Assembly: GCA_003577165.1 (NCBI GenBank)
Contig: QEUM01000004.1
Location: 248,001-312,000, forward strand
DNA length: 64,000 nucleotides
Source of the DNA: Armatimonadota bacterium
Lineage (GTDB): Bacteria > Armatimonadota > Fimbriimonadia > Fimbriimonadales > ATM1
Direction: 5' to 3'
The translations under genes and the position numbers were made by a program. This document shows positions 36,172 to 55,033 of this stretch, piece after piece. Within the stretch, counting starts at the first letter, position 1. Each line of letters opens with the position of its first letter. A model generated the notes under the pieces. That model did no database searches. It was not told where the DNA came from and was given only the letters and a program-made list of their open reading frames with translations.

Positions 36172-39100
36172 ATGGTTTTACACATACTCCTCACCGCAGC
36201 CGTCGTCGGCCCTCTCGCGCAGGTGAGGCCCACAGCCCGCCTGGTTCCCCAGACCGGGCACGCTTGCCCCCTGGACTCCGTTGCCGTCTCGCCTGACGGC
36301 CGCCTTGTGCTCACGGGGGGAGCCGACCAGAAGGCACAACTCTGGGACGCGCAATCCGGCGCGGCGATCGTCACTTACGTCGGCCACGACGGACCTGGAG
36401 GCGTCGAGTTCGTCGCGTTCTTAAAGGGCGGCCGGGAGATTGTCACGGCAGGGGGGGATCGCACGATTCGATTCTGGGACGCAGCGACGGGGAAGGAGAA
36501 ACGCAAGTTCGGCGCGGAAGAGGGCTGGTCGTCACCGATAGTGATCTCGCCCGACGAGGCGACGGTCGTCGCCGGAGACGAAGAGGGGAGCCTGGCCGTA
36601 CTCGACATGGCCTCGGGCAAGGTGCAGCGACGGCTCAGCGTCGAGGGAATGATCGTCGAAGCGGCAATCTCCCCAAACGGCCGGGAAATCGCTATCGCGA
36701 CTTTCGACGGTGACGTTGTGGTCTGCGATTTTCAGACCGGCGCGACGAAGCGCACGCTCGTTGGGCATGAAGACTCGATCAACTCCGTCGAGTACTCGGC
36801 CGATGGGTCGAAACTGCTCACTGCAGGATACGACGAAACGGTCCGGATCTGGAGTGCGCAAACCGGAAAGCAGGTTCTGAAGCAGCCCGTACCCACGGAA
36901 GGCCTCCTGTACGCCAAGTTCTCACCCGATGCGAAGACCTTCCTCACGCTCGGAGGCAATTCTCCAAAGATCTGGGACTCCACGACTGGTAAGGAGAGGG
37001 CATCGCTCGATGGGCACATCGACGTCGTGATGCACGCCGCGTACTTTCCGGACGGGCGAAAGATCGTTACCGCCGGATCGGATTGGACCGCAAGGATCTG
37101 GAACGCGGAATCCTCTGTGGAACTGGCGAGGCTGTTTCCTTTCGCCCCCCCCGTGTTTGCCTCAGTCCTCGCTCAGTCTCCGAATCGGCTGGTGATCGGA
37201 GGCATCGACGGCATATGCCGAATTCTCCAGATCAACGAGGGGGGCCGAATCCTCGAACTTCGCGGCCATGAGGCGCCGATCGTGGATGCGCACTTCTCCC
37301 CCGATCAACGAAATCTTGTCACGGCAGGCGCCGACGGTACGGCGATCGTCTGGGATGCTGCAGACGGATCGAGGAAGTTCGTGCTGTCGGGCCACACGGA
37401 CGGGGTTCAGTCCGCCCGTTACTCTCACGACGGCACGCGCATCGTGACCTCCAGCGCAGATGGTTCTGCGCGCATTTGGAACTCGCAGACAGGGAAGTCG
37501 GAGTTGACGCTCCTCAAGGAGACCGTGGACGCAGGAGGACTTCTCTCGGCAGAGCTTTCACCAGACGATGATCATGTCGTGACAGCGACAGACTTTGGAG
37601 TCGTGATTTGGAACTCTCGCACGGGAGCCGTCGAGGAACGAATGGAGAACCGCGACGAACTGACTCTGTTCTCCGTATTGCCCATTTCTTCTGCCGTATA
37701 TTCCCCCTCCGGGACGCGAATCGCATCGGTCAACGCGTTTCACCCGGGTCGAGTTTGGGATGCAGCCACGGGTGCGGAACTGTTCCGACTGGAAGGCGAT
37801 TCGGGCAGCGACACGTCGGTGGCCTTTTCACCCGACGGCAAGCGGATCGCCGCATGTGGACTCGATGGCCCCATCCGGCTGTTCGATGCCGAAACCGGCA
37901 AACTGCTCCTCCAACTCATCGGGCATACCGGCACCATCAATCGAGTTTCGTTCAGCGACGACGGCACTCGACTCGTGAGCGCTGGAATGGATGGGACCTG
38001 CCGGATATGGGATTCGAGCTCGGGCGCCGAAGTGTGTTCCGTGATGTTCACACTCGAAGGTGGATGGGTGGTGACGACACCCGATCATCGCTTCGACACG
38101 GACGATCTCAACTGGGTTCCAGGCATGCATTGGATCGCGTCCGATCAGCCGTTCAGGCCCCTCGGAGTCGAGGTGTTCATGCGACAGTACTTTGAGCCGA
38201 AGTTGCTCACACGGATCTTTCGCGGAGAACGGCTTCCCGAAGTCAAGAGCATTGCCCAACTCAATCGAGTTCAGCCGAAGTTGCAGATTCTCAGCGTGGT
38301 AAGGGACCGAGCGAACGACACTGCCACCATCAGGATTGAAGTGACGAGAGGCAAAGAAGCGTTCGAGCGGGACGGATCACGAGTCGAAGTTGAAACATCC
38401 GCCAACGACTTGCGGGTCTTTAGGAACGGCAGGCTCATCCGCCACGTGGAGGGCAACCTCATTGAGGGGGGGGTCGAATCCAAGATGTTCGTCCTCGACG
38501 ACATCCCGCTGCGCACCAGGCCCGAACTCTCTGAGGTGCTGTTCACCGCCTACTGCTTCAACGACGATGATGTCAAGAGCGAAACAGCAGCGTACATCCT
38601 CGACGTGCCGCCGAGCGCGGTCGTGAGAAAGCCGCGAGTCTTTGCGATGTGCTTCGGAGCGGACGATTATGACGGGGATGCGGTGCGCGATCTCAAGTAC
38701 GCCGCTGCGGACGCGAAGGCATTCGAGAAGACGTTCACAAGTGCCTTTACGAACCACGCAGGCATCGAACAAGTGGTCTCCCTGTCCTTCGTCTCCGAGT
38801 CCGAAGGCGCAAAGCAAGCGACCAAAGAGAACTTCAAGGCCGCGCTCGATCTCCTTTGCGGAAGGCAAGTCTCCTCGGAGGTTCTGGAGAGAGCGCCTGA
38901 CCTGAAGAAACTCACCAAAGCAACTCCCGATGACATCGTCATCGTGACGTTCTCCGGACACGGCGTATCGGGTGATGACGGCAAGTTCTATCTCGTTCCC
39001 TCGAACATCAAGTCCAAGGAAACGCTTCGAGAGGATTCGATCAGTTCAGATGAACTCTCCGAGTGGTTCAGGGACCTCGACGCCCTCGAGATGGCCTTCA

Positions 39101-39693
39101 TTCTGGATGCCTGTCACTCAGCGAAAGCCATTGAGCAGGAGGGCTTCAAGCCGGGGCCGATGGGTGCGAGAGGCCTCGGCCAACTCGCCTATGACAAGGG
39201 CATGTTGGTTCTAGCGGCGACTCAGGCCGAGGACGTCGCGCTGGAGGTGAACAAACTTCAGCATGGTCTGCTCACCTACGCGTTGGTCGAGGACGGCTAC
39301 ATCGCCGGCAAGGCGAAGGACGCCAACGGTTTTCTAGGCCTTCAAGGTTGGCTGAAGTACGCCGAGTCCCGTGTGCCTGAGATATATGCCGCGCTTGCGA
39401 AGGGGGAAGACATCCGAGGTGAAGATGGACGGGCGGTGATCTTCTCCGGCTCCACCGCGTCCATGAAGACCCGTGAAGACCTCCAGCGACCCTCGCTATT
39501 CGACTTCCTGAAGACACGACCGCAGATCGAGATGGTGCAAGCGACCACAGGCGACGTTTGGACTCCGATATGGGGGCTCTTCGTGAATAATGCAAGTGTG
39601 CTTTCAGATGGCGCGGCGTTCGACGAAGCTGTAGTCGAATTCTGGCGACGAGTCGTCATGAACTCGATTGCGTGGAGCAGGCGTTCCGCCTGA
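36172..39693 (+). CDS. WD40-caspase fusion protein A, 1173 aa
   Basis: A very large fusion. A short hydrophobic start (MVLHILLTAAVVGPLAQ) suggests export or weak anchoring. About 14 WD40-like blades follow, counted by closing strands such as AQLWDAQSG, IRFWDAATG, VRIWSAQTG, ARIWNAESS, GRVWDAATG and CRIWDSSSG, enough for two seven-bladed propellers. A linker (GGWVVTTPDHRFD, then FMRQYFEPKLLTRIFRGE) and a beta-rich part lead to a C-terminal C14 caspase domain from about residue 820. The catalytic pair is His930 (TFSGHGVSG) and Cys981 (LDACHSA). It is first in an operon with caspase B. The pattern suggests a protease gated by ligand or protein binding to the propellers; substrates are unknown. 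Confidence 0.9.
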   Translation: MVLHILLTAAVVGPLAQVRPTARLVPQTGHACPLDSVAVSPDGRLVLTGGADQKAQLWDAQSGAAIVTYVGHDGPGGVEFVAFLKGGREIVTAGGDRTIRFWDAATGKEKRKFGAEEGWSSPIVISPDEATVVAGDEEGSLAVLDMASGKVQRRLSVEGMIVEAAISPNGREIAIATFDGDVVVCDFQTGATKRTLVGHEDSINSVEYSADGSKLLTAGYDETVRIWSAQTGKQVLKQPVPTEGLLYAKFSPDAKTFLTLGGNSPKIWDSTTGKERASLDGHIDVVMHAAYFPDGRKIVTAGSDWTARIWNAESSVELARLFPFAPPVFASVLAQSPNRLVIGGIDGICRILQINEGGRILELRGHEAPIVDAHFSPDQRNLVTAGADGTAIVWDAADGSRKFVLSGHTDGVQSARYSHDGTRIVTSSADGSARIWNSQTGKSELTLLKETVDAGGLLSAELSPDDDHVVTATDFGVVIWNSRTGAVEERMENRDELTLFSVLPISSAVYSPSGTRIASVNAFHPGRVWDAATGAELFRLEGDSGSDTSVAFSPDGKRIAACGLDGPIRLFDAETGKLLLQLIGHTGTINRVSFSDDGTRLVSAGMDGTCRIWDSSSGAEVCSVMFTLEGGWVVTTPDHRFDTDDLNWVPGMHWIASDQPFRPLGVEVFMRQYFEPKLLTRIFRGERLPEVKSIAQLNRVQPKLQILSVVRDRANDTATIRIEVTRGKEAFERDGSRVEVETSANDLRVFRNGRLIRHVEGNLIEGGVESKMFVLDDIPLRTRPELSEVLFTAYCFNDDDVKSETAAYILDVPPSAVVRKPRVFAMCFGADDYDGDAVRDLKYAAADAKAFEKTFTSAFTNHAGIEQVVSLSFVSESEGAKQATKENFKAALDLLCGRQVSSEVLERAPDLKKLTKATPDDIVIVTFSGHGVSGDDGKFYLVPSNIKSKETLREDSISSDELSEWFRDLDALEMAFILDACHSAKAIEQEGFKPGPMGARGLGQLAYDKGMLVLAATQAEDVALEVNKLQHGLLTYALVEDGYIAGKAKDANGFLGLQGWLKYAESRVPEIYAALAKGEDIRGEDGRAVIFSGSTASMKTREDLQRPSLFDFLKTRPQIEMVQATTGDVWTPIWGLFVNNASVLSDGAAFDEAVVEFWRRVVMNSIAWSRRSA

Positions 39694-39709
39694 ATTGAGG
39701 ACCCTAAAA

Positions 39710-41770
39710 ATGTTGACGATATCGGCCCTTGTGTCCCTCGCAGTTCTTGCACAGCCGCATGCCGCGCCCCCCAAGATGGCGCTCCTCATCGGTATCAAGG
39801 AATACGACGAGAAGCCCATCAACGATCTCAACGGCGACAAAGACGTTAAGATCATGCGCGAGTTGCTTTCGGCAACCGCAGGGTTTGCGCCGAGCGACAT
39901 CACTCCGCTCACCCCGCGCGTGACGAAGACGAAGTTTATAAACGAACTGGACGGGTTCATCGGACGGGCGACGCAAAACAAGGAGACCGTTGTCGTCATC
40001 TTCTACTCAGGACACGGAACGCAAACGAAGGACGAACCCAACGGCGACGAATCCGACGGGCTTGACGAAGCGCTCGTTCCTTCCGATGCGAAGTACGCGG
40101 GCGATGTTCTCGATCCGAAGACGCTCATTACGGACGATGAAATCGCGACGAGGATCAAGAGGCTTAGAGACGCCGGAGTCGAAAACGTCACGCTGATCTT
40201 CGACTGCTGCCATTCGGGTGGGGGCTCGCGCGGTGAGTGGATCGAGCGTGCGGTCGAAAACCCGCAAGCGCCGGCGATTTTCCCGAAGTCCACTGAAGAC
40301 GCCTTCAAAGACGACGGCAAACTTGGAGGGTATGTCGTTCTTTCCGCCGCGCGGTCTACGCAGCGTGCGTATGAGAACAGCAAGGGAGGGCGATTTACGC
40401 AGGCCTTGCGTGCCGCAGTCGGGCGATGCTCTCCCGATTCGACTTATCTTTCACTCTACGAGCGGCTTGTTTCGGAGATGTTTGCGGTGCCGGGCACCAA
40501 CTCGCAGGATCCTGTAATCGAAGGCGAAGTCAATCGAAAACTGTTCACGACGGAAACTCTCACGCGGAAGCCTTACTTCCTCGTCTCCGTCGAGGGATCA
40601 AAAGTCGTCCTCGATGCAGGCATCGTTCACGGCATCGAGGAAGGCACTCTCGTGGATGTCTATCCTGCCGAGACCGAGGACTTCGACAAGACGAAGCCGA
40701 TCGTTCGCGCCACGGCGAGGAATCTGCAGACCGGTGAATGCGATCTCGAGTTGCCGAGCGACCAGACGCCGCCGGTGAATGTTGCTTCCCTGGCCGGAGG
40801 GCGGGCTCGTGTCGCTTCCCCCCCCATCGGAAGCGGACAGCTCCGTGTGTACCTCGATCCCTCCTCTACGGCTTCCCTCCGCGCCCGACTTGGCGAACTC
40901 AAGTTCGTTTCGACCGACTGCACGCTTGGCGATCATGACGTGTCGGTACTAGAGCGGGAAGAGCAAGGGCGAAAGTACTTCGTCATCGCGCACCCGGACG
41001 GCACGGAGTTTCAGCGTGTCGCCGCCGAGTCGCGTGAGAACTCCGATCCTCTCGGCGCTGCGCTCCGCGAAGTCGGGAAGTGGCGCGCGATTCGGGAACT
41101 TGGACGAGGCTCCGGCGGCTGCGATGTTCGTGTCGACATGGAAATCGTGCGAGTCAAAGTCAAACAACTGCCGACGGGTCACCTGCAGTTCGACGGGATT
41201 CAAAACGAAGCCGCCTCCAGCACGGCGCTCGATTTCACGAAGAACCAGTACTATGCGATTCGCGTTCGGGCGACGTGGATCGCGAACCCGCCGAAACTCT
41301 GGGACCCCTGCGTCGCGATTCTCAATCTACTCCCCACGGGTCGCATCACTCAGTTGTGGCCGCAAAACCGCGGGTTTCAGAGCCTGCAGGACGATAGTAG
41401 GGTGATCGCCGACGGTCAGTGGCGCTGGCTGCGCAACCTTTACGGAACTGCGCTTCCCACCGACACGCGCGCTCTGGAGGACATTCTCGTCCTCGGCTCC
41501 GATCCGACGCATCCAAATCCAGCATTCCGGGATCCGCTGGGCGTACAGGTCTTCAAGCTGATCGCGACGAGAACGCCGGAGGACTACTCCGGCTTGCTCA
41601 TCGGCGAAGACAGAAGCCCGAGAGGCGAGTCCAGCCCGCTCGCTCAGATCCTCCTGGATTACGCGCGGGAAGGTGTGACCACAAGAGCACAGCCCTTCTC
41701 CTCTGGGAATGGAAACCGGGAATGGATGGCGGTGGACGTTTCGATCCGGGTCGTGCCTCCGACGGAGTAA
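39710..41770 (+). CDS. Caspase-family protein B with C-terminal DUF4384-like domain, 686 aa
   Basis: Secreted (signal peptide MLTISALVSLAVLAQPHA). The caspase domain occupies residues 22-280: ALLIGIKEYDEKPINDLNGDKD, His102 in FYSGHGTQ and Cys167 in FDCCHSGG. Acidic stretches (GDESDGLDEAL, as in Ca-dependent metacaspases) lie between them. The second half is beta-rich; ILNLLPTGRITQLWPQ and VQVFKLIAT resemble the DUF4384 domain often fused to caspases. ATG 39710 is 16 bases after caspase A, behind GAGG, so A and B form an operon. Confidence 0.88.
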   Translation: MLTISALVSLAVLAQPHAAPPKMALLIGIKEYDEKPINDLNGDKDVKIMRELLSATAGFAPSDITPLTPRVTKTKFINELDGFIGRATQNKETVVVIFYSGHGTQTKDEPNGDESDGLDEALVPSDAKYAGDVLDPKTLITDDEIATRIKRLRDAGVENVTLIFDCCHSGGGSRGEWIERAVENPQAPAIFPKSTEDAFKDDGKLGGYVVLSAARSTQRAYENSKGGRFTQALRAAVGRCSPDSTYLSLYERLVSEMFAVPGTNSQDPVIEGEVNRKLFTTETLTRKPYFLVSVEGSKVVLDAGIVHGIEEGTLVDVYPAETEDFDKTKPIVRATARNLQTGECDLELPSDQTPPVNVASLAGGRARVASPPIGSGQLRVYLDPSSTASLRARLGELKFVSTDCTLGDHDVSVLEREEQGRKYFVIAHPDGTEFQRVAAESRENSDPLGAALREVGKWRAIRELGRGSGGCDVRVDMEIVRVKVKQLPTGHLQFDGIQNEAASSTALDFTKNQYYAIRVRATWIANPPKLWDPCVAILNLLPTGRITQLWPQNRGFQSLQDDSRVIADGQWRWLRNLYGTALPTDTRALEDILVLGSDPTHPNPAFRDPLGVQVFKLIATRTPEDYSGLLIGEDRSPRGESSPLAQILLDYAREGVTTRAQPFSSGNGNREWMAVDVSIRVVPPTE

Positions 41771-41855
41771 AGGCGCAATTCTCGATTTCCGGTGGTAAGG
41801 CGAGCCGTCTGCCGGACTCCTCCATTGCGGCGCAAGACGCCAACGGAGGAAAACC

Positions 41856-42035
41856 ATGGAAATCGAAACGCTTCACAAAGTCTACGAACCCACCATCATC
41901 AGCCTTGGCCTCACTCAGGAGGAAGTGGACCGCCTCTTCGAGATCGTGCTGATGAGTCCCATCGTAGATGAGGATCTGCTTCTCAAAGTTTCGCGTCAAG
42001 TACGCCTTACAGGCACGCTAAGGTCCAAGTCGTAA
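41856..42035 (+). CDS. Small ORF, 59 aa, third gene of the caspase A-B operon
   Basis: Begins MEIETLHKVYEPTIISLGLT and continues as amphipathic helices (EEVDRLFEIVLMS, DEDLLLKVSRQVRL) to a TAA at 42033-42035. A strong GGAGGA ribosome site lies 5 bases before the ATG, and a hairpin terminator starts at the stop codon. The ORF lies 85 bases after caspase B. No signal peptide or recognised family. Its position suggests an accessory or regulatory partner of the caspases, but this is inferred only. Confidence 0.7.
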   Translation: MEIETLHKVYEPTIISLGLTQEEVDRLFEIVLMSPIVDEDLLLKVSRQVRLTGTLRSKS

Positions 42036-42066
42036 CTGCAGCCGTCGGAACTCTACGGCTGCAGTT
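42034..42066. terminator. Bidirectional hairpin terminator between convergent operons
   Basis: A perfect 11-bp stem (42034-42044 with 42056-42066) with an 11-nt loop. It begins within the stop codon of the 59-aa ORF. It also includes the last codons and stop of the convergent anti-sigma-like gene, so the hairpin is partly coding on the minus strand. No long T-tract is present on either side. Confidence 0.6.
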
Positions 42067-43453
42067 CGAGTTCCTTCTTGCGCCGCGCCTCAAAATCTCG
42101 AAGCATCGCCGCCGCCGCTTCGGATCGCGGATTGAGCCTCGCGAACTCACGAAGTGCTTCCAGCGCCGCCTCCGTCATTCCGAACTCCGCGAACGCGCTC
42201 GCCTTGCCTAACAAGGAACCGTGTGCTTCGTCGAGCCTCGACCGCAGAGCGCTCTCTTCCTGAGGGCTCAAGGTTCGGAACGTCGCCGCAACCTTTCCGC
42301 AATGCGATGACTCCGCGCTGCGTCCTTCGACGAACGCTCGAACGCTCCACGTGAACACCTCGCCTTGAGGCAGAGTTCCGCCGTCAGGTCGCCAACTCGT
42401 TCCCGTGATGGGCCCTGACTCCTCGATGATCCGTCCATTCGCGTACACGGTCACGACGTACGTTGCGGATTTCGCAAACGGTTGCCATCGAAAGACGACG
42501 TCCTCCGCGCGCACGCTCGTCACGATTGGCGAAATCAAATCGAATGGCGCGTCGTCGCGAGCGGCCTGCTTCAGGTCCTCGTTGCTTCGACCGGCCTCGA
42601 TGCGCCCCTTTTTCAAGGCGTCCGCGGCCGGGTCATTTGACGGCAGACTTTCGGCGAACCCGCCGTCGATTTCGTAGATCACTCGATCCCCGTCTCGAAC
42701 GGACCGCGTCCGCGTCCCCCCGCTCGAGTTGCCGGCGCCGGCGAGTCGCTTCGCGAGGGAATCGCTCCGACTCTTCTCCTCCTCCAGCGATTGTCGAGCC
42801 GCTTCCAGTTCGCTCTCCGCCTGTCCGGCGCGTCCTTGTGTGGCATCGAGTTCGCGGCGGATTTCGTTCATTCGATCGGCGCTATCTTTCAGTCCCTGGG
42901 CCAGTTCGCCGTTCTTCGTTTCGGCGGCCTCCAAGCGCGCAAGCAGGTCGGCACCGCTTTCTCCTGGGCTCGATCCGACTCGAAGCAGCGCGAACAGCAA
43001 TGCTGCGGCTGCCATTGCCACGCCGGCCTCGACGGAGAGCCGGAGCCACGAAAGAGAAAAGATCCCCCCCCGCTTTCTTTCCGTCGGTCCGACCGGTTCA
43101 ACTCCGTACGCGCTCATGTGTGCGTACTCGGAGCGCAGGCTCGCTACGACTTCGCGAAGGCCGGGCTGCCAGTCCATGGCATCCTCGATCACCTCGCACA
43201 TCATCGGATTGGCGCGACCGGCCACGTATTCCACCAGATCCTCGTCAGTGATCTGCACGTCGGCCTGGTCGCCGAGAAGTCTCGGCATCAAGCGTCCTTC
43301 TCGCGCGAGTTCGGAGACAACGGTCCGAGCGACCTCCGGTTCGACCTCGGACAGAGCGCTCGCGAACTCATCCGGCGTCTTCGCCTGCTCCAGCCGTCTC
43401 ACCAGTTCGTTTCGTTCTCGATCGGTCATCGCTTGGGCGCTCCTTTGGTCCAT
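42053..43453 (-). CDS. Putative membrane anti-sigma factor with coiled coil, FN3-like and TPR-like regions, 466 aa
   Basis: Probable membrane regulator of the sigma-like protein encoded just upstream. Residues 60-110 (EDLVEYVAGRANPMMCEVIEDA, then PGLREVVASLRSEY) resemble the cytoplasmic helical part of zf-HC2-type anti-sigma factors without the zinc ligands. A membrane helix lies at about 139-159, a coiled coil at 168-240, an FN3-like domain around 300-400 (VVFRWQPFAKSATYVVTVYA) and helical repeats at 405-460. The start is ATG 43453 or, with a better AGGAG, ATG 43429. Sigma/anti-sigma pairs of this layout next to caspase or CHAT genes occur in other phyla (recollection). Confidence 0.7.
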   Translation of the reverse strand: MDQRSAQAMTDRERNELVRRLEQAKTPDEFASALSEVEPEVARTVVSELAREGRLMPRLLGDQADVQITDEDLVEYVAGRANPMMCEVIEDAMDWQPGLREVVASLRSEYAHMSAYGVEPVGPTERKRGGIFSLSWLRLSVEAGVAMAAAALLFALLRVGSSPGESGADLLARLEAAETKNGELAQGLKDSADRMNEIRRELDATQGRAGQAESELEAARQSLEEEKSRSDSLAKRLAGAGNSSGGTRTRSVRDGDRVIYEIDGGFAESLPSNDPAADALKKGRIEAGRSNEDLKQAARDDAPFDLISPIVTSVRAEDVVFRWQPFAKSATYVVTVYANGRIIEESGPITGTSWRPDGGTLPQGEVFTWSVRAFVEGRSAESSHCGKVAATFRTLSPQEESALRSRLDEAHGSLLGKASAFAEFGMTEAALEALREFARLNPRSEAAAAMLRDFEARRKKELELQP

Positions 43454-43505
43454 CGGACATGGACCTCACGACGTCTGGATGCGGGCCGGCCGACCACCTT
43501 ACCAA

Positions 43506-44546: not shown

Positions 44547-44717
44547 GGGATGCCTTATTACTTCCACGCCCTCGGCTCGTCCCCTTTCGCTCCAGCGCAA
44601 TCCTGCCGGCGACCCTTCCGAGAGCGTTTTCGAAAATTGTCACGTTCGATGGTAAGGGGCCTCCGATTTCCGCATCTGGGTTCTTGTCCGACCCAGAGGG
44701 CGGACGAGGAGAAAAAA

Positions 44718-45422
44718 ATGAACACTATCAACAAAGCAATCGCAGGAATCGCAATCGTCGCTTCGCTGGCAACCACGGCATCCGCCCAGGTCGTCGGCTC
44801 AACCGAAACCGGCATCGAGAATGCCGATGCAGAAATGACTACAGCTGGATTTGTCCTAGGCTCGGCTGCTGCGGAGTTTGGAAGCAACATTCTGTTTGCC
44901 TTTGCTGACGCGGAGTACCTCGAACTGGCAAGTCTCAACTTGGACACCATGAACGTTGCGGCCTCGGGCCTCTCGGAGGCTTACTTGGACGACGACGCTG
45001 CATATGAAGAGTTTGCCCAGGTCATCGAGGCGACGGCAGAAGACATCGCAGACGGTGACTATGAATACGGCGTGGTGCTCGAGAGCCTTTACGGGGCCTT
45101 CGACGAGTTCATGATGAACTTGCTCGCGAGCGATGAGGGACGAGTCACATGGTATGGCTACCTCGGCTTCTGGCACGGCTATGCGGGTCTGTCCCTCGCC
45201 CTGTACGAACTTGAGATCTTCGAGGCTCCGGATGTGCAGGACTCTCTTCAGGTTTTCGTTGGACTCGCGCAAACTGCTGCAGACAATGAGGACGCTGAGG
45301 TGAAGAGAATCGTTACCGATCTGGCGAAATTGGCAGAGGCTGAGAAGTTCGGTAAGAAGCAGCTCGAAGCGACCTACGAACTCATCGAAGAGCTCTGGAC
45401 GATCATCGTGGGCGAATGCTAA
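44718..45422 (+). CDS. Secreted acidic alpha-helical protein, 234 aa
   Basis: A clear signal peptide (MNTINKAIAGIAIVASLATTASAQ, cleavage after ASA) and a GAGGAG ribosome site before ATG 44718. The mature protein is very acidic and helical (LDDDAAYEEFAQVIEATAEDIADGDYEYG, shortened here), with few basic residues except near the end. It is divergently transcribed from the sigma-like gene and followed by a strong terminator, so it is a single-gene unit. No domain recognised. It may be an envelope component or target of the locus; this is inference. Confidence 0.78.
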   Translation: MNTINKAIAGIAIVASLATTASAQVVGSTETGIENADAEMTTAGFVLGSAAAEFGSNILFAFADAEYLELASLNLDTMNVAASGLSEAYLDDDAAYEEFAQVIEATAEDIADGDYEYGVVLESLYGAFDEFMMNLLASDEGRVTWYGYLGFWHGYAGLSLALYELEIFEAPDVQDSLQVFVGLAQTAADNEDAEVKRIVTDLAKLAEAEKFGKKQLEATYELIEELWTIIVGEC

Positions 45423-45445
45423 GCAAGCAGCACGTCCCCAGAAGT

Positions 45446-45472
45446 GAGAGGTCGGCAAACCGCCGACCTCTC
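45446..45472. terminator. Strong hairpin terminator
   Basis: A perfect 11-bp stem (45446-45456 with 45462-45472), 5-nt loop, outer AAGTG/CACTT pairing across a small bulge, then TTTAAC. It lies 24 bases after the secreted-protein stop and 24 bases before the end of the convergent caspase C gene, so it probably serves both. Confidence 0.8.
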
Positions 45473-45495: not shown

Positions 45496-48400
45496 TCAGC
45501 CTCCTGCTTCCAAGGTCACATCCGGCCGCTTAAGTAGAAAGTCAAACAGCATCGGTGTCTGGCGACTCCTTGACTTTGCCTCGGTGACCCCCCCCGCAGA
45601 CACGACTACGGCTCTCCCGTCCGTTCCTGTGATCTCTCTGCCCGAGCGAAGCGCGTCATAGATTTCGGGCACTCGCCAAACAGCATATCGGAGCCAATCC
45701 AGGAGCAGGACGACGCCGTCGTCCGCGGCGCGTCCGCCACGCAGTCCTTCTTGGACGAGCGCGTAAGTGAGCAGTCCATGCTGCAGTCGTCCGCTTTCGA
45801 GTGCAGTGTCCTCCGCCTGAGTCGCGGCGAGCAGCAGCATCCCCTTGTCGTACGCGAGTTGGCCGAAGCCCTTCGTACCCATCGGCCCCGGGCGGAAGCC
45901 CTCCTCCTGAAAGGCGCTCGCCGACTGACAGGCATCGAGCACGAACACGAATTCGCCTGCATCAACCCCCTTCAGCCACTCGCTGAGTTCGTCCGTGCTG
46001 ACGCACGACGTCTCGTCGAGGGGCCTGCCCTTTGCATCTTGCGGCACGAGGAAGAACCTCCCACTCCCCCCCGCAAAGCCGTGCCCCGCCCATGATAGAA
46101 AGACCAAATCGTCTGGCGTGGCCTTCTTCAGTTTGCCGGCATCGGGAATGCGCGCGAGGACGTCTGGGGGTGCGCTCCGACCTCCGAGAACTTCGATCAC
46201 CGCTCGGATGATCTCCTTTCCGGCGTTCGCATCGCCGTCCACTTCCGAGATCAGGGCGACGGCGACCACCTCGTCGTAGAGATCAGACTCGGCGAGCGCA
46301 TCTTCCAATGCAGCGGAAGTAGTTCGCGCGTCGTTGGCTGCGTACTTCAAGTCCGATAGCGCTTCGCTCTCATAGCCGTCGATTCCGACGGATATCGCAT
46401 ACACTCGGCCCTTCTTCTCGGCACCGGCGGGCAGCGGGAAGACGAACTTCGCTGACGGGCTCTTCACCTCGCTATCGTTGAAGCAGTACGCGGCAAACTC
46501 CACCTCCTCTCCGGATGTAGGCAATGGGATCCCTTCCTCCACGAACTCCGCTTCGACTTCGCTTTCGCCGAGCAGTTCAGCGGATACTTGACGAACGAGC
46601 CGTCCGTCGCGAAACAGCCGCAAGTCGTGCGCGCCGGACTTCCTCCCTGCGCCGCCACTCGCAGGCGCGCGGACCTTCATCGTGACGGTCGCCGTGCGAT
46701 TGGATCCAGAGGTAACCGACGTGATTTCCACTATCGGCTGATTGAGATTGAGTCCAGCGAGGCTCGGGACCGCCGACAGAGACACGCCGTTCAAAAGCTT
46801 CGCCAACAGCCGAGGCTCGTAGTACTGTCTCATGAACGCCTCGATTCCCAGCGGCGACAGAGGATCGCTCGGCGGAAGCCAGTGGAGGCCGGCACCGTCG
46901 TCGAAGCTGTTGGTGTCGAATCGCCCATCCGCAGCCGCAACGGCCCACGTCCTGTTCTGGAAAGAGGCGAGCGAACAGATTTCGCTTGGCTGGTTCACCT
47001 CATAGATGCGAACGAGGCCATCCGGCAAAAGAACGTACACTCGCGAGGAGGCTCCCAAGAAGCCGACGGCCTCCGGTACCTGGCTGCCGATGTCCCACGA
47101 AGCGATCTGCTTCCCAGTGGCGGTTTCCCAAATGCGAAGAGAGCCGAAGTCCGTCGCCGCACAGAAGAGGTCGCCCGACGACGAGAACGCTGCCCACACC
47201 AATCCCCCACCCAAGCCAATGTCGAGAACACTCTCGACGGTGTTTCCGTTTAGGCGAATCCTGTAGATATTGAAACCCGACGTCAGGTCTCCGAGGAGCA
47301 GATCTCGGTTCGTCGGCGACGTCGTACAGAAAACTCTCCGCTCGGCAATGGTGTCCGCGTCGTATCCGACGGAGAAGCGCTCAGGATAAGAGAGGATCGC
47401 GCTCTCCTTGCCGGTCGTTCCATCCACGAGCGCAATTCCCCGATTGGACGGAATGGCGGCTGTACTGCCGCTTGCAAGGAACCCGAACGCGTCGATCTCG
47501 GACGTTCGGCGGTAGCGGGAGACTTCAACGAGATAGCCACTTGCGTTCGAGAAGTCCGGCCGCCGGTAGAACCGGATTTCCTCTGGAAAAAGACCTGCGA
47601 TGGTGCCGTCGCTGGCCACGGATGCACAGGTTGCCCCCGTTGCATTCTCTTCGGTTTCGTTGGCTTGGGTCCGCCCTGATCTCGCTTCGTGCGCAATCAC
47701 GCCGTTTGGTCCGGCCGAAACGTAAAAACTCCCGTCGGGAGCGAACGCGATCGCAGTGACCCAACGCATGTAATGTCTGGGAATCGTGTATCCGTTCCCC
47801 GTCCCGAGGTCCCAGTCGACGATGTCTCCCTCCTGGTGACCTACGACGAGCATCGAGCCGTCAGGAGATGCAGCCGCGCACCAAGGGACGAGCGCAACGT
47901 TGTCCCAATGCGGAACTACCCTTGTGAGAGCCGGCTCCTCCCGGATGAACCGATTTCCCCCTAAGGAAGTCGCCCAGTGAACTGTCCATGTCGCACCGCA
48001 GACCGCGACTTCCCGTCCGTCGGGAGAGAGCGCGACGGCTCGCGCTTCGTCGGCTTCGTCTTCGTCCCAGAACTCATCGCCCAAACTGGTTGCGATCTCA
48101 TTGCGCTTTCCACTTGCTAAGTTCGTTTCTGTCATCGAGTCGTCGGCCAAAACGACGACGAGGTCCGTTGTCCCGGCGAAGCCCAGGATTTCGCCCTGCA
48201 CAGGGATTCGCCGAATGCTGGCGAGAGTGCCCGCGTTCACACACTCGATGCTCGTTCCGATCTGAACGAAGTACCGCGAACGGTCGGCCGATGCCCGAAT
48301 CTGAGTAACTTCCGTTCTGCCGATTCGATTCGACGCCAACACCTGTCCGCTTGAGATGTTCACGACCAGAAGCCACCCGGCGCTGGTGCCCATGATCGCG

Positions 48401-49032
48401 GACTTCCCGTCTCGCGTTCCTTCCAACGAGGTGACCTCGTGCCCTGTGACATTCAATTCTTTCGCCGTGCCCGTGAGGACATCGATTGCGAAGCATCCCT
48501 CCGCGCTCAATACAACCACGGTCTTTCCGTCGGCAGCGAAAGATGCGGTCTCGATTCCAAGGAGATCGCCAAGTTTGCGCGCCTTTCCGCTAAGAACCTC
48601 GATGACATGAAGTTCCGCGCCGGCGTGGACCAACTGAGTTCCAGTGAGGTCGAAGCACACCTGGGGCGCAGAGTCCGACTCCCCGCGCCCCCGACCGATC
48701 GTGATTTCCCGAATGAGTTTTCCCGCGCCGGCGTGCCAGATCCGGACGGAACCGTCCATCGCGGCCGTCGCCATCAACTTCCCGTCGCGCGAAAAGCAGA
48801 CGCCGGTGACGATTCCTCCGTGGCCAGTTTGCGCCTGAAGTCGGGGACGATTCGCTTCTTGCGCGCCGGCACTTGTGAGTCCACCAGAGTTCGGCGACTG
48901 CCAACGAGTGAGTCCAAGCGCGAGCGACACCAAACAGAGAAGCGCAGAAAGCAGGGTCCACGATCTGCGTACTGTTCGGCACTGCCCGCCTCTGTCGGTT
49001 CGAATGACGCTGAGTCTGTTCATGGTTGCCAC
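45496..49032 (-). CDS. WD40-caspase fusion protein C, 1178 aa
   Basis: Paralogue of caspase A with a signal anchor at residues 24-42 (WTLLSALLCLVSLALGLTRW), so the bulk is probably extracytoplasmic. I count about 14 WD40-like blades, more degenerate than in A (for example VRIWHAGAG, CFAIDVLTG, IVDWDLGTG, LRIWETATG, VRIYEVNQP). The linker repeats that of A: TWAVAAADGRFD, LHWLPPSD and FMRQYYEPRLLAKLLNG. The caspase domain has His984 (SWAGHGFAG) and Cys1035 (LDACQSASA). After the Cys, GPMGTKGFGQLAYDKGMLLL is nearly identical to the matching part of A, indicating a recent common origin. A terminator separates it from upstream gene D. Confidence 0.9.
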   Translation of the reverse strand: MATMNRLSVIRTDRGGQCRTVRRSWTLLSALLCLVSLALGLTRWQSPNSGGLTSAGAQEANRPRLQAQTGHGGIVTGVCFSRDGKLMATAAMDGSVRIWHAGAGKLIREITIGRGRGESDSAPQVCFDLTGTQLVHAGAELHVIEVLSGKARKLGDLLGIETASFAADGKTVVVLSAEGCFAIDVLTGTAKELNVTGHEVTSLEGTRDGKSAIMGTSAGWLLVVNISSGQVLASNRIGRTEVTQIRASADRSRYFVQIGTSIECVNAGTLASIRRIPVQGEILGFAGTTDLVVVLADDSMTETNLASGKRNEIATSLGDEFWDEDEADEARAVALSPDGREVAVCGATWTVHWATSLGGNRFIREEPALTRVVPHWDNVALVPWCAAASPDGSMLVVGHQEGDIVDWDLGTGNGYTIPRHYMRWVTAIAFAPDGSFYVSAGPNGVIAHEARSGRTQANETEENATGATCASVASDGTIAGLFPEEIRFYRRPDFSNASGYLVEVSRYRRTSEIDAFGFLASGSTAAIPSNRGIALVDGTTGKESAILSYPERFSVGYDADTIAERRVFCTTSPTNRDLLLGDLTSGFNIYRIRLNGNTVESVLDIGLGGGLVWAAFSSSGDLFCAATDFGSLRIWETATGKQIASWDIGSQVPEAVGFLGASSRVYVLLPDGLVRIYEVNQPSEICSLASFQNRTWAVAAADGRFDTNSFDDGAGLHWLPPSDPLSPLGIEAFMRQYYEPRLLAKLLNGVSLSAVPSLAGLNLNQPIVEITSVTSGSNRTATVTMKVRAPASGGAGRKSGAHDLRLFRDGRLVRQVSAELLGESEVEAEFVEEGIPLPTSGEEVEFAAYCFNDSEVKSPSAKFVFPLPAGAEKKGRVYAISVGIDGYESEALSDLKYAANDARTTSAALEDALAESDLYDEVVAVALISEVDGDANAGKEIIRAVIEVLGGRSAPPDVLARIPDAGKLKKATPDDLVFLSWAGHGFAGGSGRFFLVPQDAKGRPLDETSCVSTDELSEWLKGVDAGEFVFVLDACQSASAFQEEGFRPGPMGTKGFGQLAYDKGMLLLAATQAEDTALESGRLQHGLLTYALVQEGLRGGRAADDGVVLLLDWLRYAVWRVPEIYDALRSGREITGTDGRAVVVSAGGVTEAKSRSRQTPMLFDFLLKRPDVTLEAGG

Positions 49033-49089
49033 TTTGAAGGTGCCTATCGCGAAGGTGGACCGCGCCGCGCGCCCACATGCAAAAAGAAG

Positions 49090-49130
49090 GCGGACCTCGG
49101 GACGAGGTTAAATTCCGTCCCGAGGTCCGC
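49090..49130 (-). terminator. Intrinsic terminator of caspase D
   Basis: A perfect 14-bp GC-rich stem (49090-49103 with 49117-49130) with a 13-nt loop lies 8 bases past the stop of caspase D on the minus strand and is followed in that direction by CTTCTTTTTG. It ends about 58 bases before caspase C starts, implying that C has its own promoter or depends on readthrough. Confidence 0.88.
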
Positions 49131-49138
49131 TTCGAGAA

Positions 49139-50038
49139 TTACTCAGTTTCGTCGTGCAAAATGAGCGGCTCGTCCTTTCTTGCGTCCGAACTGAACTCGA
49201 ACGTCGGCTGCTGCTCGTCTTCGGGAATGTCGATGTCGCGGAGTTTCGTTACCACGGCTGCGGCCAATTCCGAACTCGTCACATCGGGATCGTCGCGCAG
49301 CGCGAGTAGCAGGGCGCAGGTGAATGCGCCGTGTGGGCGACCGAGGGGAGACACGCCGAGATCGATCGAGGTCTGATCTTCACGGCTCGCGAACATGTAA
49401 GCGAACGAGCCATCGTCCGATGCAGCACCCTTCTTGCGCATCTTCGCCCGAATCGGCGCATAACTGGTGCGGCCCATCGACTTTAGAGCACGCTTGCCCT
49501 TTCCGGAGAAGTACTTGACCCTTGCATCGGCGCGAGACATTCCGCCGCTGAAACAGCAGTCCATCAAGAACGATGCCCGAATGTTCGATTCCAAACAGTA
49601 GTTTCCGATCATGCCGAAGAGATTGTCTGGAACGCAATTAAGATCGCTAAGAACCAGACACTCGTCCATGCCGTCGGCGGCGTCGGACCCGTCGTCATCC
49701 TCGCCGACGTCGAGTTGTACGCCATGGCCAGAGTAGAAGAAGACGATCTGATCGCCGGGAGACGCCGATTGGAGGAGCCACTTCATGCCCTCTACGAATC
49801 CTTCGACGTCCGCACTGTCGTCGTAGAGGTTTCGAGTGTTGCTTAAGGGCACGTCGTACTTCGACACGAGCAGGTCTCGAAAGGCCTTCGCGTCATTGAC
49901 GCAGCCTCGCAAGTCGCTGTCGTCCCCTTCGTAGTCGTTGATTCCGATGATGAGCGCATATGTCTCTGCTCTCGCCGCACCGCACATCATCATTGCCACG
50001 CCGACCGTTAGCGTTGAAAACACGGATTTGATGTTCAT
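49139..50038 (-). CDS. Secreted caspase-family protein D, 299 aa
   Basis: A compact C14 peptidase with a signal peptide (MNIKSVFSTLTVGVAMMMCGAARA, shortened at the site) and no extra domains. It has ALIIGINDYEGDDSDLRGCVNDA, the classic metacaspase opening, His105 in FYSGHGVQ and Cys162 in MDCCFSGG. Between them is an acidic stretch (VGEDDDGSDAADGMDECL) typical of Ca-binding in metacaspases. A GAAGGAG ribosome site precedes ATG 50038. It is closer to ordinary type I metacaspases than to A, C or E. Confidence 0.9.
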   Translation of the reverse strand: MNIKSVFSTLTVGVAMMMCGAARAETYALIIGINDYEGDDSDLRGCVNDAKAFRDLLVSKYDVPLSNTRNLYDDSADVEGFVEGMKWLLQSASPGDQIVFFYSGHGVQLDVGEDDDGSDAADGMDECLVLSDLNCVPDNLFGMIGNYCLESNIRASFLMDCCFSGGMSRADARVKYFSGKGKRALKSMGRTSYAPIRAKMRKKGAASDDGSFAYMFASREDQTSIDLGVSPLGRPHGAFTCALLLALRDDPDVTSSELAAAVVTKLRDIDIPEDEQQPTFEFSSDARKDEPLILHDETE

Positions 50039-50244
50039 AAATTCTCCTTCGCAAGTCCGAAAGCAGGACGTGCCCCCCTCGGGTGCGTTTCCCTTCGGCG
50101 GCCGGCCCTAGGTCCCTCGACCTACGAGGGTTGATTTCGCCTCTCCATGCGCGAATTCCTTCGTCCGAATCGGGCCCTAACTTCGAAGACTGTTCCGCTC
50201 CGGCCGGCGCGCTCGGCCTCGAGCGGAGGTACCTTGACTGCGTG

Positions 50245-51207: not shown

Positions 51208-51358
51208 TCGAGCCGGGCAGCGAGTTCCCTTTGGTTCGATTCGGGCCTCGCCAGAAGCAGCGAACTGCACAGAAACCACCCTCTGGGTCCTTCGGCCCCG
51301 CAGGACAAGCGGCTTCGGCGGCGAATCGTCAGTTCTGTCACGCGTGGAGTGAATTCAA

Positions 51359-54300
51359 ATGCTGACCCTTACTGTCTCCGCTTGCGTTCTGTCCTGCGTC
51401 GTCGGTTCTCAAACTGACGACCAGAAGCTCCAACTCGTCCCGCAGTCGGGTCATGCTTCGATGCTTACGTCGGCAAGGTACTCGCGCGACGGGAGGCGCA
51501 TCGTAACGACGAGTTGGGACCAGACGGTGCGCATTTGGGATGCGGAGACAGGCACCGAATTGCTGCCGCTAGTCGGTCACATCGGTTCGGGCCCGGTGGA
51601 GGTCGCTAACTTTTCGCCAGATGGCAAACGAATCGTGTCAGGGGGTGGGGAAGGAGAAGTTCGAGTTTGGGATGCCATTCGAGGCGTTGAGTTGATGACG
51701 TGGAGTCGTTCGCACATTCTCAGCGTCGACATTGCCGAGTACTCCTATGACGGAAAATACATACTGACTTTCGGTGAGAATGGACTCTGCCTGCGTGACG
51801 CATCCGATGGCGACATCGAATGGGATCTCAGGGAACTCACTTCTGCATCGGTAACTTGTGCGACATTCTTCAAGGACGGCACTCACATTGCGGTTGGCGA
51901 CTACGACGGGAACGTGGACATTTTGGACGTTCAGTCAAGGAAGCATGAGGGAGTGCGGACTGAGCACGAAGATGCGGTTCGGAGCATCAGTTTTTCGCAG
52001 GATGGGAAGCGTATGGTCACATCGAGCGACGATGGGACGATTCGCGTATGCAATGCGGAGTCGGGCGATGTTATTTGGGAGAAGGACGTCGGTGCAGACT
52101 TCCAGACTCGCGCTGAGATTTCGCCTGACGGAAAACGAGTCGCCTACAACGACGAGAGAGTTGTCAGGATACTGGACGCGAGCGACGGTGAAGAGAGTCT
52201 CACTCTAACGGGCCACTTCGACGATGTGGCGTCCCTCTGCTATTCTCCCGACAGTAAGAGGATTGTCAGTGCAGGAACGGACAACTTTGGCGTTGTTTGG
52301 GACGCGAACACTGGTGAGCCCCTGGCTTTGCTGATGGGAGAGTCGTTCTCGGTCACGTCGTTCGACTTTTCGCAGGACACGATACGGCTTGCCGTGGGCG
52401 GCGGCGACGGCGTCGCGCGAATCGTTTCGTTGGAGAGGGGCGACGTATCCCTTACGCTTACAGCATCAGGAAGTCCAATAACAGAGTGCAGATTCGTCGC
52501 CGATTCGAACTCGCTGTTGGTAGCGAGCATCTTCGAGGGGCACAAGCGCTGGAGCGCTGAGGCTGGTGACTTGATCCTCCCCGGGCCGGAAGCGGAAGAT
52601 GAAGTCCGCACGGAGGCCCTCGACATTGCGCCGGACGAATCCGAGTTCATCACTGCAAACGAAGACGAGGTCCTGAGATGGGACATGAAGTCGGGGCAGT
52701 TGCTAGGTCGGTTTCGCGCGCGGATGGAAGGCGAAGATGCTCTGGAGACTGCGCGATACTCTCCCGACGGCAAGCGAATTCTCACAACTTGCGATGACTC
52801 GATTCGCGTCTGGGAGAATCCCGGCGGCCGCCAAGTTGCGGTCATGAAACTCCCTGACGCAAGCGAGGAGTCTTCGATCGGGTTCGCTCCCTCCTACGCA
52901 GAATTCTCACCGGACGGCAAGAAGATCGTCGGTGCGAGCATCTTCAGGTCCGCGATCGTGTGGGATGCGGAGAGTGGAAAGCAAATTGTAAGCCTGAAGA
53001 ATAGCGAGGACGGCGACACCTATGCGCGCTTTTTGGACGGTGGAAAGCGTGTCGTGACGACCGGCCTCTACGGCTTCGTGGCGATATCCGACGCCGAGAC
53101 TGGTGCGCTCATTAAGAGGATTCGAGCTCACAAGGGAAACGTGACGGAGCTGGAGTTTACAAAAGACGAAAAGCGGATGTTCTCCGCAAGCCACGATGGA
53201 ACCTGCAAGATTTGGGACGTCGAGACCGCGACCGAATTGTGCGACCTCGTGTTCTTCGCCGAGGGGGGTTGGGCCGTCATTGACCCCAGAACCGGTCGCT
53301 ACGATGCAAGCAACGCGGGCGACGTGGACGGCCTGCATTGGGCGTATTCCGATTCGAAGCGAGGCATTCTTGAAGCGATCGAACTGGGTCAGTTCAAGGA
53401 CCTCTACTGGACGCCGGGGTTGCTCGCGAAGATCTGGAAGGGAGAAAAGATCGAGGATCTGCCAAAACTCGAAGGGATCGGACTTTGGCCCGAAGTGAGC
53501 ATCGCCCCCCCGCAAGCGGGCGACGCGCAGATCAAACTGAGCCTCACCAATCGCGGTGGAGGCATCGGAAAAGTCAAGGTCTTCGTGAACGACCGGCCCG
53601 TAACCCTCGACGCAAGGGGTCCGAGCGCGGATCCCGACGCTCCGAACGAGGAGCTCACGGTGGACATCGGCGCGTTCATGATCCCAGGCCAACAGAACTT
53701 CGTCGCAGTCGTGGCCGACAACAGCGACGAGGATCTGCCGCTCCGAGGGCGCGCGGTCACGGTGAGCGTGCCGGCGAAAGGGAGCCCCTATAGTCCTCAC
53801 CTCTACGTGCTCGCCGTCGGCACGAATGACTACGCGAACGACCGTCTCGATTTACGACTGGCCGCGAGAGATGCGGAGGCCTTTCTCGAAGCGGCAACCT
53901 TGGGGAGCGGCTTTTTCGAGGGGCGGACGCACCTCACGTTGCTCAGCACCGAAGAGTCCGCGCTCACCGGTGTCGAATTCGGCGAGCCGACGAAGGCGCG
54001 CATCGAGCAGGAGATGAAGGAGATTGCGGCCGTCGCGCAGCCGGGCGACGCCGTCCTGCTCTTCTTCTCCGGTCACGGCGTGACCTACACATCGGCTTCA
54101 GGAAAGGCATATGCCTACTTGACACTCGAGGCGACGTCCGGCGACTTGTCAATCGAAGAGGTGCGGAAGAACAAGGCCGTGACCTTTGGCGAACTCGCCG
54201 CCTGGACGAAGGACATCAAGGCCTGCAAGCGCGCTCTTATTCTCGACACCTGCTCCTCCGGCCAACTGGTTCAGGACCTCAGCGTCATGATGAAGGATGC

Positions 54301-55033
54301 GGACAGCGACGCGAGGATCAAAGAGTACGACCGATTCCGCGACAACACCGGGTTTTGGGTCATCGCAGGCAGCGCCGCCGACAAAGCGAGTTATGAAGCG
54401 AGCGCTTATGGTCATGGAATTCTCACTTACACGCTTCTTCAGGCTCTCACGGGACCAGGTCTCCGGGATTCCAAGTACGCCGACATCGGCCTCGTGGCGA
54501 GATACGCCCAGAACCAGGTGCCCATTCTCGCTCGCAACCTGGGGGGAATTCAGGCGCCGCAGGTGTTCACTCAGAGTGGATCGTTCACAATTGGCGAGTT
54601 CGGGCCCGCCCAGGTGTCTCAACTCAGCGAGAGGCTTCCCAGTCCGAAACCTCAATTGATTCGTCCGGTTTTCCTCAATGGCGATCTTCAAATTGACAAT
54701 CTCGATATCACGGAGAAGGTGACGCGCGAACTGGCAGTGTCGAGCGACCCGTACGCGCGGGGGGGGTGGCACGATCTTCCGGCGTGGTTCGTGGATGCCG
54801 TCAAACTGCAAGGCGCGCTCCGCCCATCCGGAACTTACAAGATTGTCGGAACGTCAGTTACCGTGACGATTCGACTCGCGCGCGGCACGGAGGTCGTGGC
54901 TGGTCCCGTCGAAGTCACAGGGGACACCTCCAGCCTCGACGACCTCGCGAAACGCGTCGCCGCCGCCTGCTTCGATTTGGCGAAGTCTACGGGGCTGGAA
55001 GTCGCGGTCCCCATCCCGGGTGGCCGCTCATAG
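51359..55033 (+). CDS. WD40-caspase fusion protein E with extra C-terminal domain, 1224 aa
   Basis: Third WD40-caspase paralogue. A signal peptide (MLTLTVSACVLSCVVGSQ) is followed by about 14 WD40-like blades (VRIWDAETG, VRVWDAIRG, GVVWDANTG, AIVWDAESG, CKIWDVETA), a version of the shared linker (GGWAVIDPRTGRYD, LHWAYSDSKRG, LLAKIWKGEKIEDL), a beta-sandwich part, and a caspase domain with His906 (FFSGHGVT) and Cys965 (LDTCSSGQ). After the caspase domain come about 160 residues, whose GTYKIVGTSVTVTIRLARG and LDDLAKRVAAACFDLAK resemble the accessory TolB-like domain found with some adenylate cyclases; this is uncertain. E is more diverged from A and C than they are from each other. Confidence 0.88.
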   Translation: MLTLTVSACVLSCVVGSQTDDQKLQLVPQSGHASMLTSARYSRDGRRIVTTSWDQTVRIWDAETGTELLPLVGHIGSGPVEVANFSPDGKRIVSGGGEGEVRVWDAIRGVELMTWSRSHILSVDIAEYSYDGKYILTFGENGLCLRDASDGDIEWDLRELTSASVTCATFFKDGTHIAVGDYDGNVDILDVQSRKHEGVRTEHEDAVRSISFSQDGKRMVTSSDDGTIRVCNAESGDVIWEKDVGADFQTRAEISPDGKRVAYNDERVVRILDASDGEESLTLTGHFDDVASLCYSPDSKRIVSAGTDNFGVVWDANTGEPLALLMGESFSVTSFDFSQDTIRLAVGGGDGVARIVSLERGDVSLTLTASGSPITECRFVADSNSLLVASIFEGHKRWSAEAGDLILPGPEAEDEVRTEALDIAPDESEFITANEDEVLRWDMKSGQLLGRFRARMEGEDALETARYSPDGKRILTTCDDSIRVWENPGGRQVAVMKLPDASEESSIGFAPSYAEFSPDGKKIVGASIFRSAIVWDAESGKQIVSLKNSEDGDTYARFLDGGKRVVTTGLYGFVAISDAETGALIKRIRAHKGNVTELEFTKDEKRMFSASHDGTCKIWDVETATELCDLVFFAEGGWAVIDPRTGRYDASNAGDVDGLHWAYSDSKRGILEAIELGQFKDLYWTPGLLAKIWKGEKIEDLPKLEGIGLWPEVSIAPPQAGDAQIKLSLTNRGGGIGKVKVFVNDRPVTLDARGPSADPDAPNEELTVDIGAFMIPGQQNFVAVVADNSDEDLPLRGRAVTVSVPAKGSPYSPHLYVLAVGTNDYANDRLDLRLAARDAEAFLEAATLGSGFFEGRTHLTLLSTEESALTGVEFGEPTKARIEQEMKEIAAVAQPGDAVLLFFSGHGVTYTSASGKAYAYLTLEATSGDLSIEEVRKNKAVTFGELAAWTKDIKACKRALILDTCSSGQLVQDLSVMMKDADSDARIKEYDRFRDNTGFWVIAGSAADKASYEASAYGHGILTYTLLQALTGPGLRDSKYADIGLVARYAQNQVPILARNLGGIQAPQVFTQSGSFTIGEFGPAQVSQLSERLPSPKPQLIRPVFLNGDLQIDNLDITEKVTRELAVSSDPYARGGWHDLPAWFVDAVKLQGALRPSGTYKIVGTSVTVTIRLARGTEVVAGPVEVTGDTSSLDDLAKRVAAACFDLAKSTGLEVAVPIPGGRS

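Follow-up and report, generated by a model that had tools for sequence, protein, structure and literature searches.

Bacterial caspase homologs are usually discussed as suicide or defence proteases. Several are known beside sigma factor genes: metacaspase operons with sigma-70 genes are described from Myxococcus xanthus and its relatives, Ralstonia and Fibrobacter (Asplund-Samuelsson, 2012; PMC3501461); EACC2-caspase systems are accompanied by an extracytoplasmic function (ECF) sigma factor and DUF1822 (Kaur, 2021; PMC8195603); and in the Type III-E CRISPR CASP system the TPR-CHAT protein Csx29 cleaves Csx30, an inhibitor of CASP-sigma (PMC10028731). Here we describe a locus in a 64,000-nucleotide stretch of DNA (the window; C22:248001-312000) from a 2.75-Mb, 97% complete genome of an Armatimonadota bacterium of the order Fimbriimonadales. 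Five C14 caspase genes (C1 to C5, at 36172-55033 of the window), the sole C14 genes found in the genome, are clustered there with a sigma factor gene and an anti-sigma gene. The association of caspases with a sigma/anti-sigma pair is supported as real and conserved. The best explanation of the locus is a module consisting of a divergent ECF-type sigma, a membrane anti-sigma with an outer sensor, and caspase-fold proteases that are predicted to be exported; the protease is C14 at this locus, and usually one CHAT protein elsewhere. The caspase, anti-sigma and sigma genes of the locus are as follows.

36172..39693, + strand: C1, predicted exported WD40-C14 caspase, 1173 amino acids (aa), His930/Cys981; WD40, and PF00656 at 3.9e-12
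39710..41770, + strand: C2, predicted exported C14 caspase, 686 aa, His102/Cys167; PF00656 at 1.1e-22
42053..43453, - strand: membrane anti-sigma, 466 aa; 11-member family alignment, zf-HC2 in relatives, transmembrane segment
43506..44600, - strand: divergent ECF-type sigma factor, 364 aa; translation may in fact begin at a later ATG, near 44546
45496..49032, - strand: C3, predicted exported WD40-C14 caspase, 1178 aa, His984/Cys1035; NCBIfam, PADLOC and our own profile
49139..50038, - strand: C4, short predicted exported C14 metacaspase-like protease, 299 aa, His105/Cys162; PF00656 at 1.6e-23
51359..55033, + strand: C5, predicted exported WD40-C14 caspase, 1224 aa, His906/Cys965; PF00656 at 5.9e-13

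Four caspases (C1, C2, C4, and C5) score above the PF00656 cut-off; C3, missed by Pfam, is matched by NCBIfam caspase_w_EACC1 (1.2e-15, under that model's own cut-off), by the PADLOC caspase model (8e-9), and by our own profile. Alignments show the catalytic dyad, a His in GHG and a Cys in DxC, in all five, and by fold and dyad C1-C5 are members of peptidase family C14 (caspase/metacaspase), with proteolysis predicted. Searches against PDB matched C4 to metacaspase-4 (4e-17) and C2 to metacaspase-1 (9e-9). The NF047832 model (EACC1-associated caspase) gave 46.6-57.6 bits against a cut-off of 140 bits, which leaves the proteins outside that family. Every caspase begins with an export-type hydrophobic N-terminus according to simple hydropathy, and the signal peptide of C4 (AARA/ET) is textbook-like, as is that of an acidic protein encoded in the cluster (ASA/QV). 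C2 starts 17 bp past C1, and its C-terminal region has no assigned domain. PADLOC did not find the complete set of components of any known anti-phage defence system; its generic caspase model matches all five proteases, and the anti-sigma has a weak match of coiled-coil type to LmuB (0.003). A 14-bit Cas7d stretch in C1 was taken as noise.

A tree of C14 domains (71 rows) places C4 in an order-wide clade of ten orthologs (support 100/100), C5 with giant WD40-C14 proteins of the same-family genome G003 (Fimbriimonadales bacterium TGS_ARM1) and other Fimbriimonadales (98/91), and C2 with proteins of G003 and of a second same-family genome, G005 (Armatimonadetes bacterium B31T1B5; 100/91). C1 and C3 are each other's closest kin (100/100), sharing 49% identity across the C14 domain, and form a window-specific duplicate pair; C2, C4, and C5 are, on this tree, older separate lineages. 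A single burst of tandem duplication as the source of all five was rejected, as the only close duplicates are C1 and C3.

The identities of the sigma and the anti-sigma, weak when each protein is taken alone, are supported because their homologs carry Sigma70_r2 and zf-HC2. The window sigma by itself scores only 1.3e-5 with TIGR02937, under the model cut-off, and the best PDB matches of its predicted model are mostly sigma factors, again weak (E 9e-3); Sigma70_r2 was matched in 4 of 14 aligned members of its family. No Pfam anti-sigma family matches the window anti-sigma itself, and zf-HC2 is found in 6 of the 11 aligned members of that family (best 2.7e-14). The parts of the protein are an anti-sigma domain that is degenerate and zinc-less, a single transmembrane segment (near residue 139), a coiled coil, an Fn3-like domain, and a TPR-like end; family members share the transmembrane segment, the Fn3-like domain, and the TPR-like end. 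The zinc motif HxxxCxxC is absent, in the alignment, from both the window protein and its G003 ortholog. A profile of the anti-sigma matched DdvA, an RslA-type chain, and FN3 chains in PDB weakly (E 0.001-0.02). These are the features of a class I membrane anti-sigma: an N-terminal anti-sigma-like domain, a single transmembrane segment, an extracytoplasmic part, and an adjoining sigma. The predicted structure of the anti-sigma was too poor (mean pLDDT, the predicted local distance difference test score, of 46.9) and was not used.

The linkage recurs across genomes. The sigma family is present in 32 of 291 Armatimonadota genomes. Of the 25 sigma-family genomes examined, 15 have the sigma no more than 10 kb from a CHAT or C14 gene, against 0.31 expected from gene counts and genome sizes; the other ten have no such neighbour, some of them at contig ends. 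The nearby CHAT gene is the genome's sole CHAT gene in most linked cases, the neighbour of the sigma is repeatedly a homolog of the window anti-sigma, and every one of the 15 CHAT proteins aligned retains its catalytic His and Cys. The association extends to Acidobacteriota: about eight genomes in a 247-genome sample of the phylum of an Acidobacteriia metagenome-assembled genome (L082) have near full-length sigmas, with sigma, anti-sigma, and CHAT together at two loci (L189, L191), sigma and CHAT at a third (L188), and sigma and anti-sigma alone (L193-L195) or contig fragments at others. The single CHAT gene of the window genome lies in a second operon (L196:5825-9653; G000:C18), with an ECF sigma and a zinc-finger anti-sigma-like gene. 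The genome has about 23 sigma-70 genes and six detected caspase-fold genes (five C14 and one CHAT), and the six are all found beside sigma/anti-sigma pairs.

In the same family, a single G003 locus holds orthologs of C2, C4, C5, the sigma, the anti-sigma, and a small 119-aa protein encoded beside C1; the WD40-C14 genes of this stretch are a split one and two more, and it further holds a 192-aa protein and two TPR-CHAT proteins. The split gene, the first WD40-C14 gene of G003 (L037:65-3854), is in two open reading frames (ORFs), by mutation or assembly error. The G005 locus encodes a C14-TPR protein, a WD40-C14 protein, an M48 peptidase, and a small exported protein, together with a canonical ECF sigma (Sigma70_r2 at 2.8e-11) and an anti-sigma in which HxxxCxxC is present. 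The sigmas of G005 and the window belong to different subtypes, but their anti-sigmas have one architecture in common. In many other Fimbriimonadales (family f4), the genes related to C4 and C5 are tightly paired, most of them separated by about 5-30 bp, with no sigma pair nearby. In the window and G003, C2, the 119-aa protein, and the sigma pair are therefore additions to an older pair of caspases. The C4/C5-type pair was seen at L039, L040, and L042-L047, and several of these loci adjoin groES-groEL. Genome G029 has a sigma-family member (L053:9196-10308) that neighbours neither an anti-sigma nor a caspase gene, and C14 is absent from that genome.

We also looked at the smaller genes of the cluster and the sequences upstream of them, where an 8-bp word, TGGTAAGG, recurs.

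35629..35988, - strand: 119-aa small protein, predicted to be exported or a lipoprotein; N-terminal hydrophobic segment, phmmer 4e-6 to L037:7178-7525
41856..42035, + strand: 59-aa ORF, uncertain gene; no family, no homolog found
44718..45422, + strand: secreted acidic protein, 234 aa, isoelectric point 4.1, charge about -35; divergent from the sigma, no family
36049..36058, - strand: motif GATGGTAAGG; its TGGTAAGG core starts 68 bp upstream of the 119-aa gene
41793..41800, + strand: motif TGGTAAGG, 63 bp upstream of the 59-aa ORF
43497..43504, - strand: motif TGGTAAGG, 51 bp upstream of the anti-sigma gene
44648..44657, + strand: motif GATGGTAAGG; its TGGTAAGG core starts 68 bp upstream of the acidic-protein gene
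41818..41850, + strand: predicted stem over the Shine-Dalgarno of the 59-aa ORF; its fold z-score of -1.2 is not significant by itself
44660..44711, + strand: predicted stem in the 5′ untranslated region, partly over the Shine-Dalgarno of the acidic-protein gene; fold z-score -2.1
50242-51207, + strand: epimerase, unrelated to the set, inside the caspase cluster

The gene order over 35.6-55.0 kb is thus 119-aa (-), C1 (+), C2 (+), 59-aa ORF (+), anti-sigma (-), sigma (-), acidic secreted protein (+), C3 (-), C4 (-), epimerase (+), and C5 (+). The 119-aa gene is part of the cluster set; its G003 ortholog (L037:7178-7525) is a 115-aa protein with a weak PF04151 (PPC-like) match. An earlier, sequence-only reading of this stretch had described much of this, and its five C14 domains (with their coordinates and His/Cys numbering), its three WD40-C14 fusions (C1, C3, and C5), its sigma-70-like and putative membrane anti-sigma genes, and its secreted acidic protein were borne out or, for the sigma pair, supported by profiles, alignments, homologs, and the signal peptide. 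It had overlooked the export signals of the caspases, the C1/C3 duplicate pair, the membership of the 119-aa gene, and the unrelated epimerase inside the set.

There are 21 copies of TGGTAAGG in the whole genome, six of them inside an 8.6-kb part of the cluster. Four copies precede genes in sense orientation: the anti-sigma by 51 bp, the 59-aa ORF by 63 bp, and the acidic-protein and 119-aa genes by 68 bp each. The remaining 15 sites, all beyond the cluster, include no copy that precedes a called gene start by 200 bp or less in this orientation. No caspase gene has TGGTAAGG directly upstream in its own orientation, and C3, C4, and C5 are without the motif. We saw no conserved -35 element, by eye, upstream of TGGTAAGG. 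G003 has another word, CTCGGAT, 54-74 bp upstream of its 115-aa, 192-aa, anti-sigma, and short C14 genes; no common upstream motif was found in the G005 cluster. The pattern in the window and G003 is consistent with the sigma of each genome recognising its own motif, and such a cluster-specific motif, a putative promoter, supports dedicated regulation of part of the cluster. The earlier suggestion of expression under a dedicated sigma is thus supported for the anti-sigma and the three small genes; the motif does not support it for the caspases, none of which has it directly upstream.

In the 5′ regions of the cluster no Rfam family was matched at the gathering threshold, and matches below it were by chance only. 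Two hairpins in G003 (L037:7129-7173 and L037:15273-15314) are near-identical (CTTCTCC...GACGCGGCAA...AAGGAGAAG), have no Rfam match, and would hide the Shine-Dalgarno sequences of the genes for the 115-aa and 192-aa proteins; the strict pattern CTTCTCC...GGAGAAG has two copies in the G003 genome, both within its caspase cluster. A general Shine-Dalgarno-masking hairpin across clusters was considered and is only noted, the window versions being weak. Beyond the cluster, the window has a 731-aa ORF (61655-63850, - strand) that looks RHS-type, its NAGPA phosphodiester-glycosidase domain coming after an RHS-like core motif (YGYALNSPTTYTDPTGLW), and two small proteins (60027-60317, - strand; 55942-56502, + strand) that, judged by eye only, resemble antitoxin-type nucleotidyltransferases.

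How might such a module work? The anti-sigma would keep the sigma at the membrane, its coiled coil, Fn3-like, and TPR-like parts forming a sensor outside the cytoplasm. A periplasmic event would activate the exported caspases, perhaps via the WD40 propellers as likely recognition parts; sharing a compartment with the outer part of the anti-sigma, the caspases would most likely cut it, directly or via a partner, or cut its partners. The freed sigma would then transcribe at least the anti-sigma (as feedback) and the motif-bearing small secreted proteins. The topology fits such a scheme, with export signals predicted on the proteases and the sensor part of the anti-sigma beyond its transmembrane segment; the direction, a protease acting on a sigma inhibitor, is borrowed from Csx29-Csx30-CASP-sigma (PMC10028731). 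Our preferred reading, which we hold tentatively, is that the locus is a caspase-rich form of a conserved envelope-signalling module, in which the caspases are mainly inputs to the switch and not death executioners. The narrower proposal, that the exported caspases are the site-1 proteases of a transmembrane sigma switch, cutting the periplasmic anti-sigma on an envelope signal and thereby releasing the sigma, is possible but somewhat doubtful.

Several points weigh against the preferred reading. Five proteases seem excessive for a simple input role; the export calls come from hydropathy and signal-peptide-like sequence alone; and the CHAT protein of the second operon has no obvious signal peptide. 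The nominal P-value of the linkage (~1e-24, with 7 of 9 families contributing) is overstated, as genomes within a family are not independent. TGGTAAGG was found post hoc, and some 8-mer common to four regions appeared in 5 of 1000 shuffles and likewise in 9 of 1000 random sets of non-cluster regions; the weight of the motif therefore rests on its genome-wide rarity and its position. Finally, most other Fimbriimonadales keep C4/C5-type caspases without a nearby sigma pair. The sequence-only reading had held that caspases scattered among unrelated neighbours in related genomes would speak against a dedicated system; because of these genomes, this is partly what was found for the caspases, but not for the sigma family, which is tied to caspase-fold genes.

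The main rival reverses the roles and is nearly as likely as the input model: the pair would sense envelope stress and switch on exported caspases and small secreted proteins as outputs, which would process or break down envelope or foreign proteins beyond the cytoplasm. A sigma adjoining its target genes is standard ECF logic, the caspases bear predicted export signals, one copy of the motif lies inside the shared intergenic region upstream of C1, the other shared motif of G003 stands 54 bp upstream of its short C14 gene, and M48 peptidases and other exported proteins occur near such loci. However, in the window it is the anti-sigma, the 119-aa gene, the acidic protein, and the 59-aa ORF that have the motif directly upstream in sense orientation, not C1-C5, three of which (C3, C4, and C5) lack it altogether. 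We consider improbable the idea, put forward in the sequence-only reading, of an abortive-infection or programmed-cell-death system under stress control. C14 domains do occur in bacterial systems of death and defence, known or predicted (PMC8195603), metacaspases linked to sigma genes have been reported (PMC3501461), and the PADLOC caspase model fits all five proteins; but that model is generic and PADLOC matched no further defence component confidently, all five proteases are predicted to be exported, no phage record matched the sigma, which gives no sign of phage origin, and the association is old and spread over families, as expected for a regulator of normal physiology. Chance proximity of a sigma pair and caspases that act independently is already strongly disfavoured and very improbable. 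Caspases do lack the sigma pair in most of the order, G029 carries the sigma and no C14 gene, and the number of sigma-70 genes leads one to expect about 0.16 per 19-kb stretch; against this stand the linkage in 15 of 25 genomes where 0.3 is expected, the same-family cluster of G003, the Acidobacteriota loci, and the second operon.

Compared with the systems already described, the general kind is known: sigma-linked metacaspases were reported in 2012 (PMC3501461) and a caspase with an ECF sigma in 2021 (PMC8195603), and "undescribed system," the term of the sequence-only reading, is too strong. The operons of Asplund-Samuelsson (PMC3501461) are alike in that C14 caspase-fold genes repeatedly adjoin sigma-70 genes; they have at most three metacaspases, and the relevant section describes no anti-sigma, whereas the window has five caspases of four lineages, all predicted to be exported, a divergent sigma, and a membrane anti-sigma with an Fn3/TPR-like outer part. 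The EACC2 systems similarly pair a caspase gene with an ECF sigma neighbour, but they have DUF1822, which was not found among the scanned cluster proteins; the window caspases start with a signal peptide or WD40 propellers, and in C4 the caspase domain follows the signal peptide too closely to leave room for an EACC2 domain. Plant, fungal, and protist metacaspases (PDB 6W8S, 4F6O, 7QP0, and 4AFR) align with C4 and C2 over the catalytic half, including His and Cys; the window proteins differ in being bacterial, predicted to be exported, and equipped with other accessory regions.

DdvS/DdvA of Myxococcus xanthus (PMC4374960; PDB 8RLZ, 8ROT) likewise ties an ECF sigma and an anti-sigma to CHAT. 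The 991-aa "CHAT domain-containing protein" of 8ROT begins with the same anti-sigma domain as the "Antisigma factor DdvA", and from the 8RLZ and 8ROT sequences DdvA appears to be an anti-sigma-CHAT fusion; the literature searched held no open paper on the structure. There, anti-sigma and CHAT are apparently one protein, whereas the window has separate genes and its protease is C14. A search, thin on subscription journals, found no paper on the association of sigma, anti-sigma, and CHAT in Armatimonadota. Within the literature searched, the features that appear new are an exported form with several caspases, the pairing of a divergent sigma with a zinc-less anti-sigma, and the repeated occurrence of sigma, anti-sigma, and CHAT or C14 together across Armatimonadota and into Acidobacteriota.

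The conserved tie of predicted exported caspase-fold proteases to a sigma/anti-sigma switch suggests a signalling role for them outside the cytoplasm, with the anti-sigma as a concrete candidate substrate. The CRISPR CASP system shares with the window a caspase-fold protease, a sigma inhibitor, and an ECF-like sigma; it is RNA-activated via Cas7-11, whereas the window pairs predicted exported proteases with an anti-sigma in the membrane, and neither Cas7-11 nor CHAT was found among the scanned cluster proteins. The module would be a plausible non-CRISPR relative of that protease-sigma system; the site-1 proposal, if true, would make it an envelope counterpart of Csx29-Csx30-CASP-sigma, and the widespread module of sigma, anti-sigma, and CHAT or C14 could resemble the ancestor that supplied the parts of CRISPR CASP.

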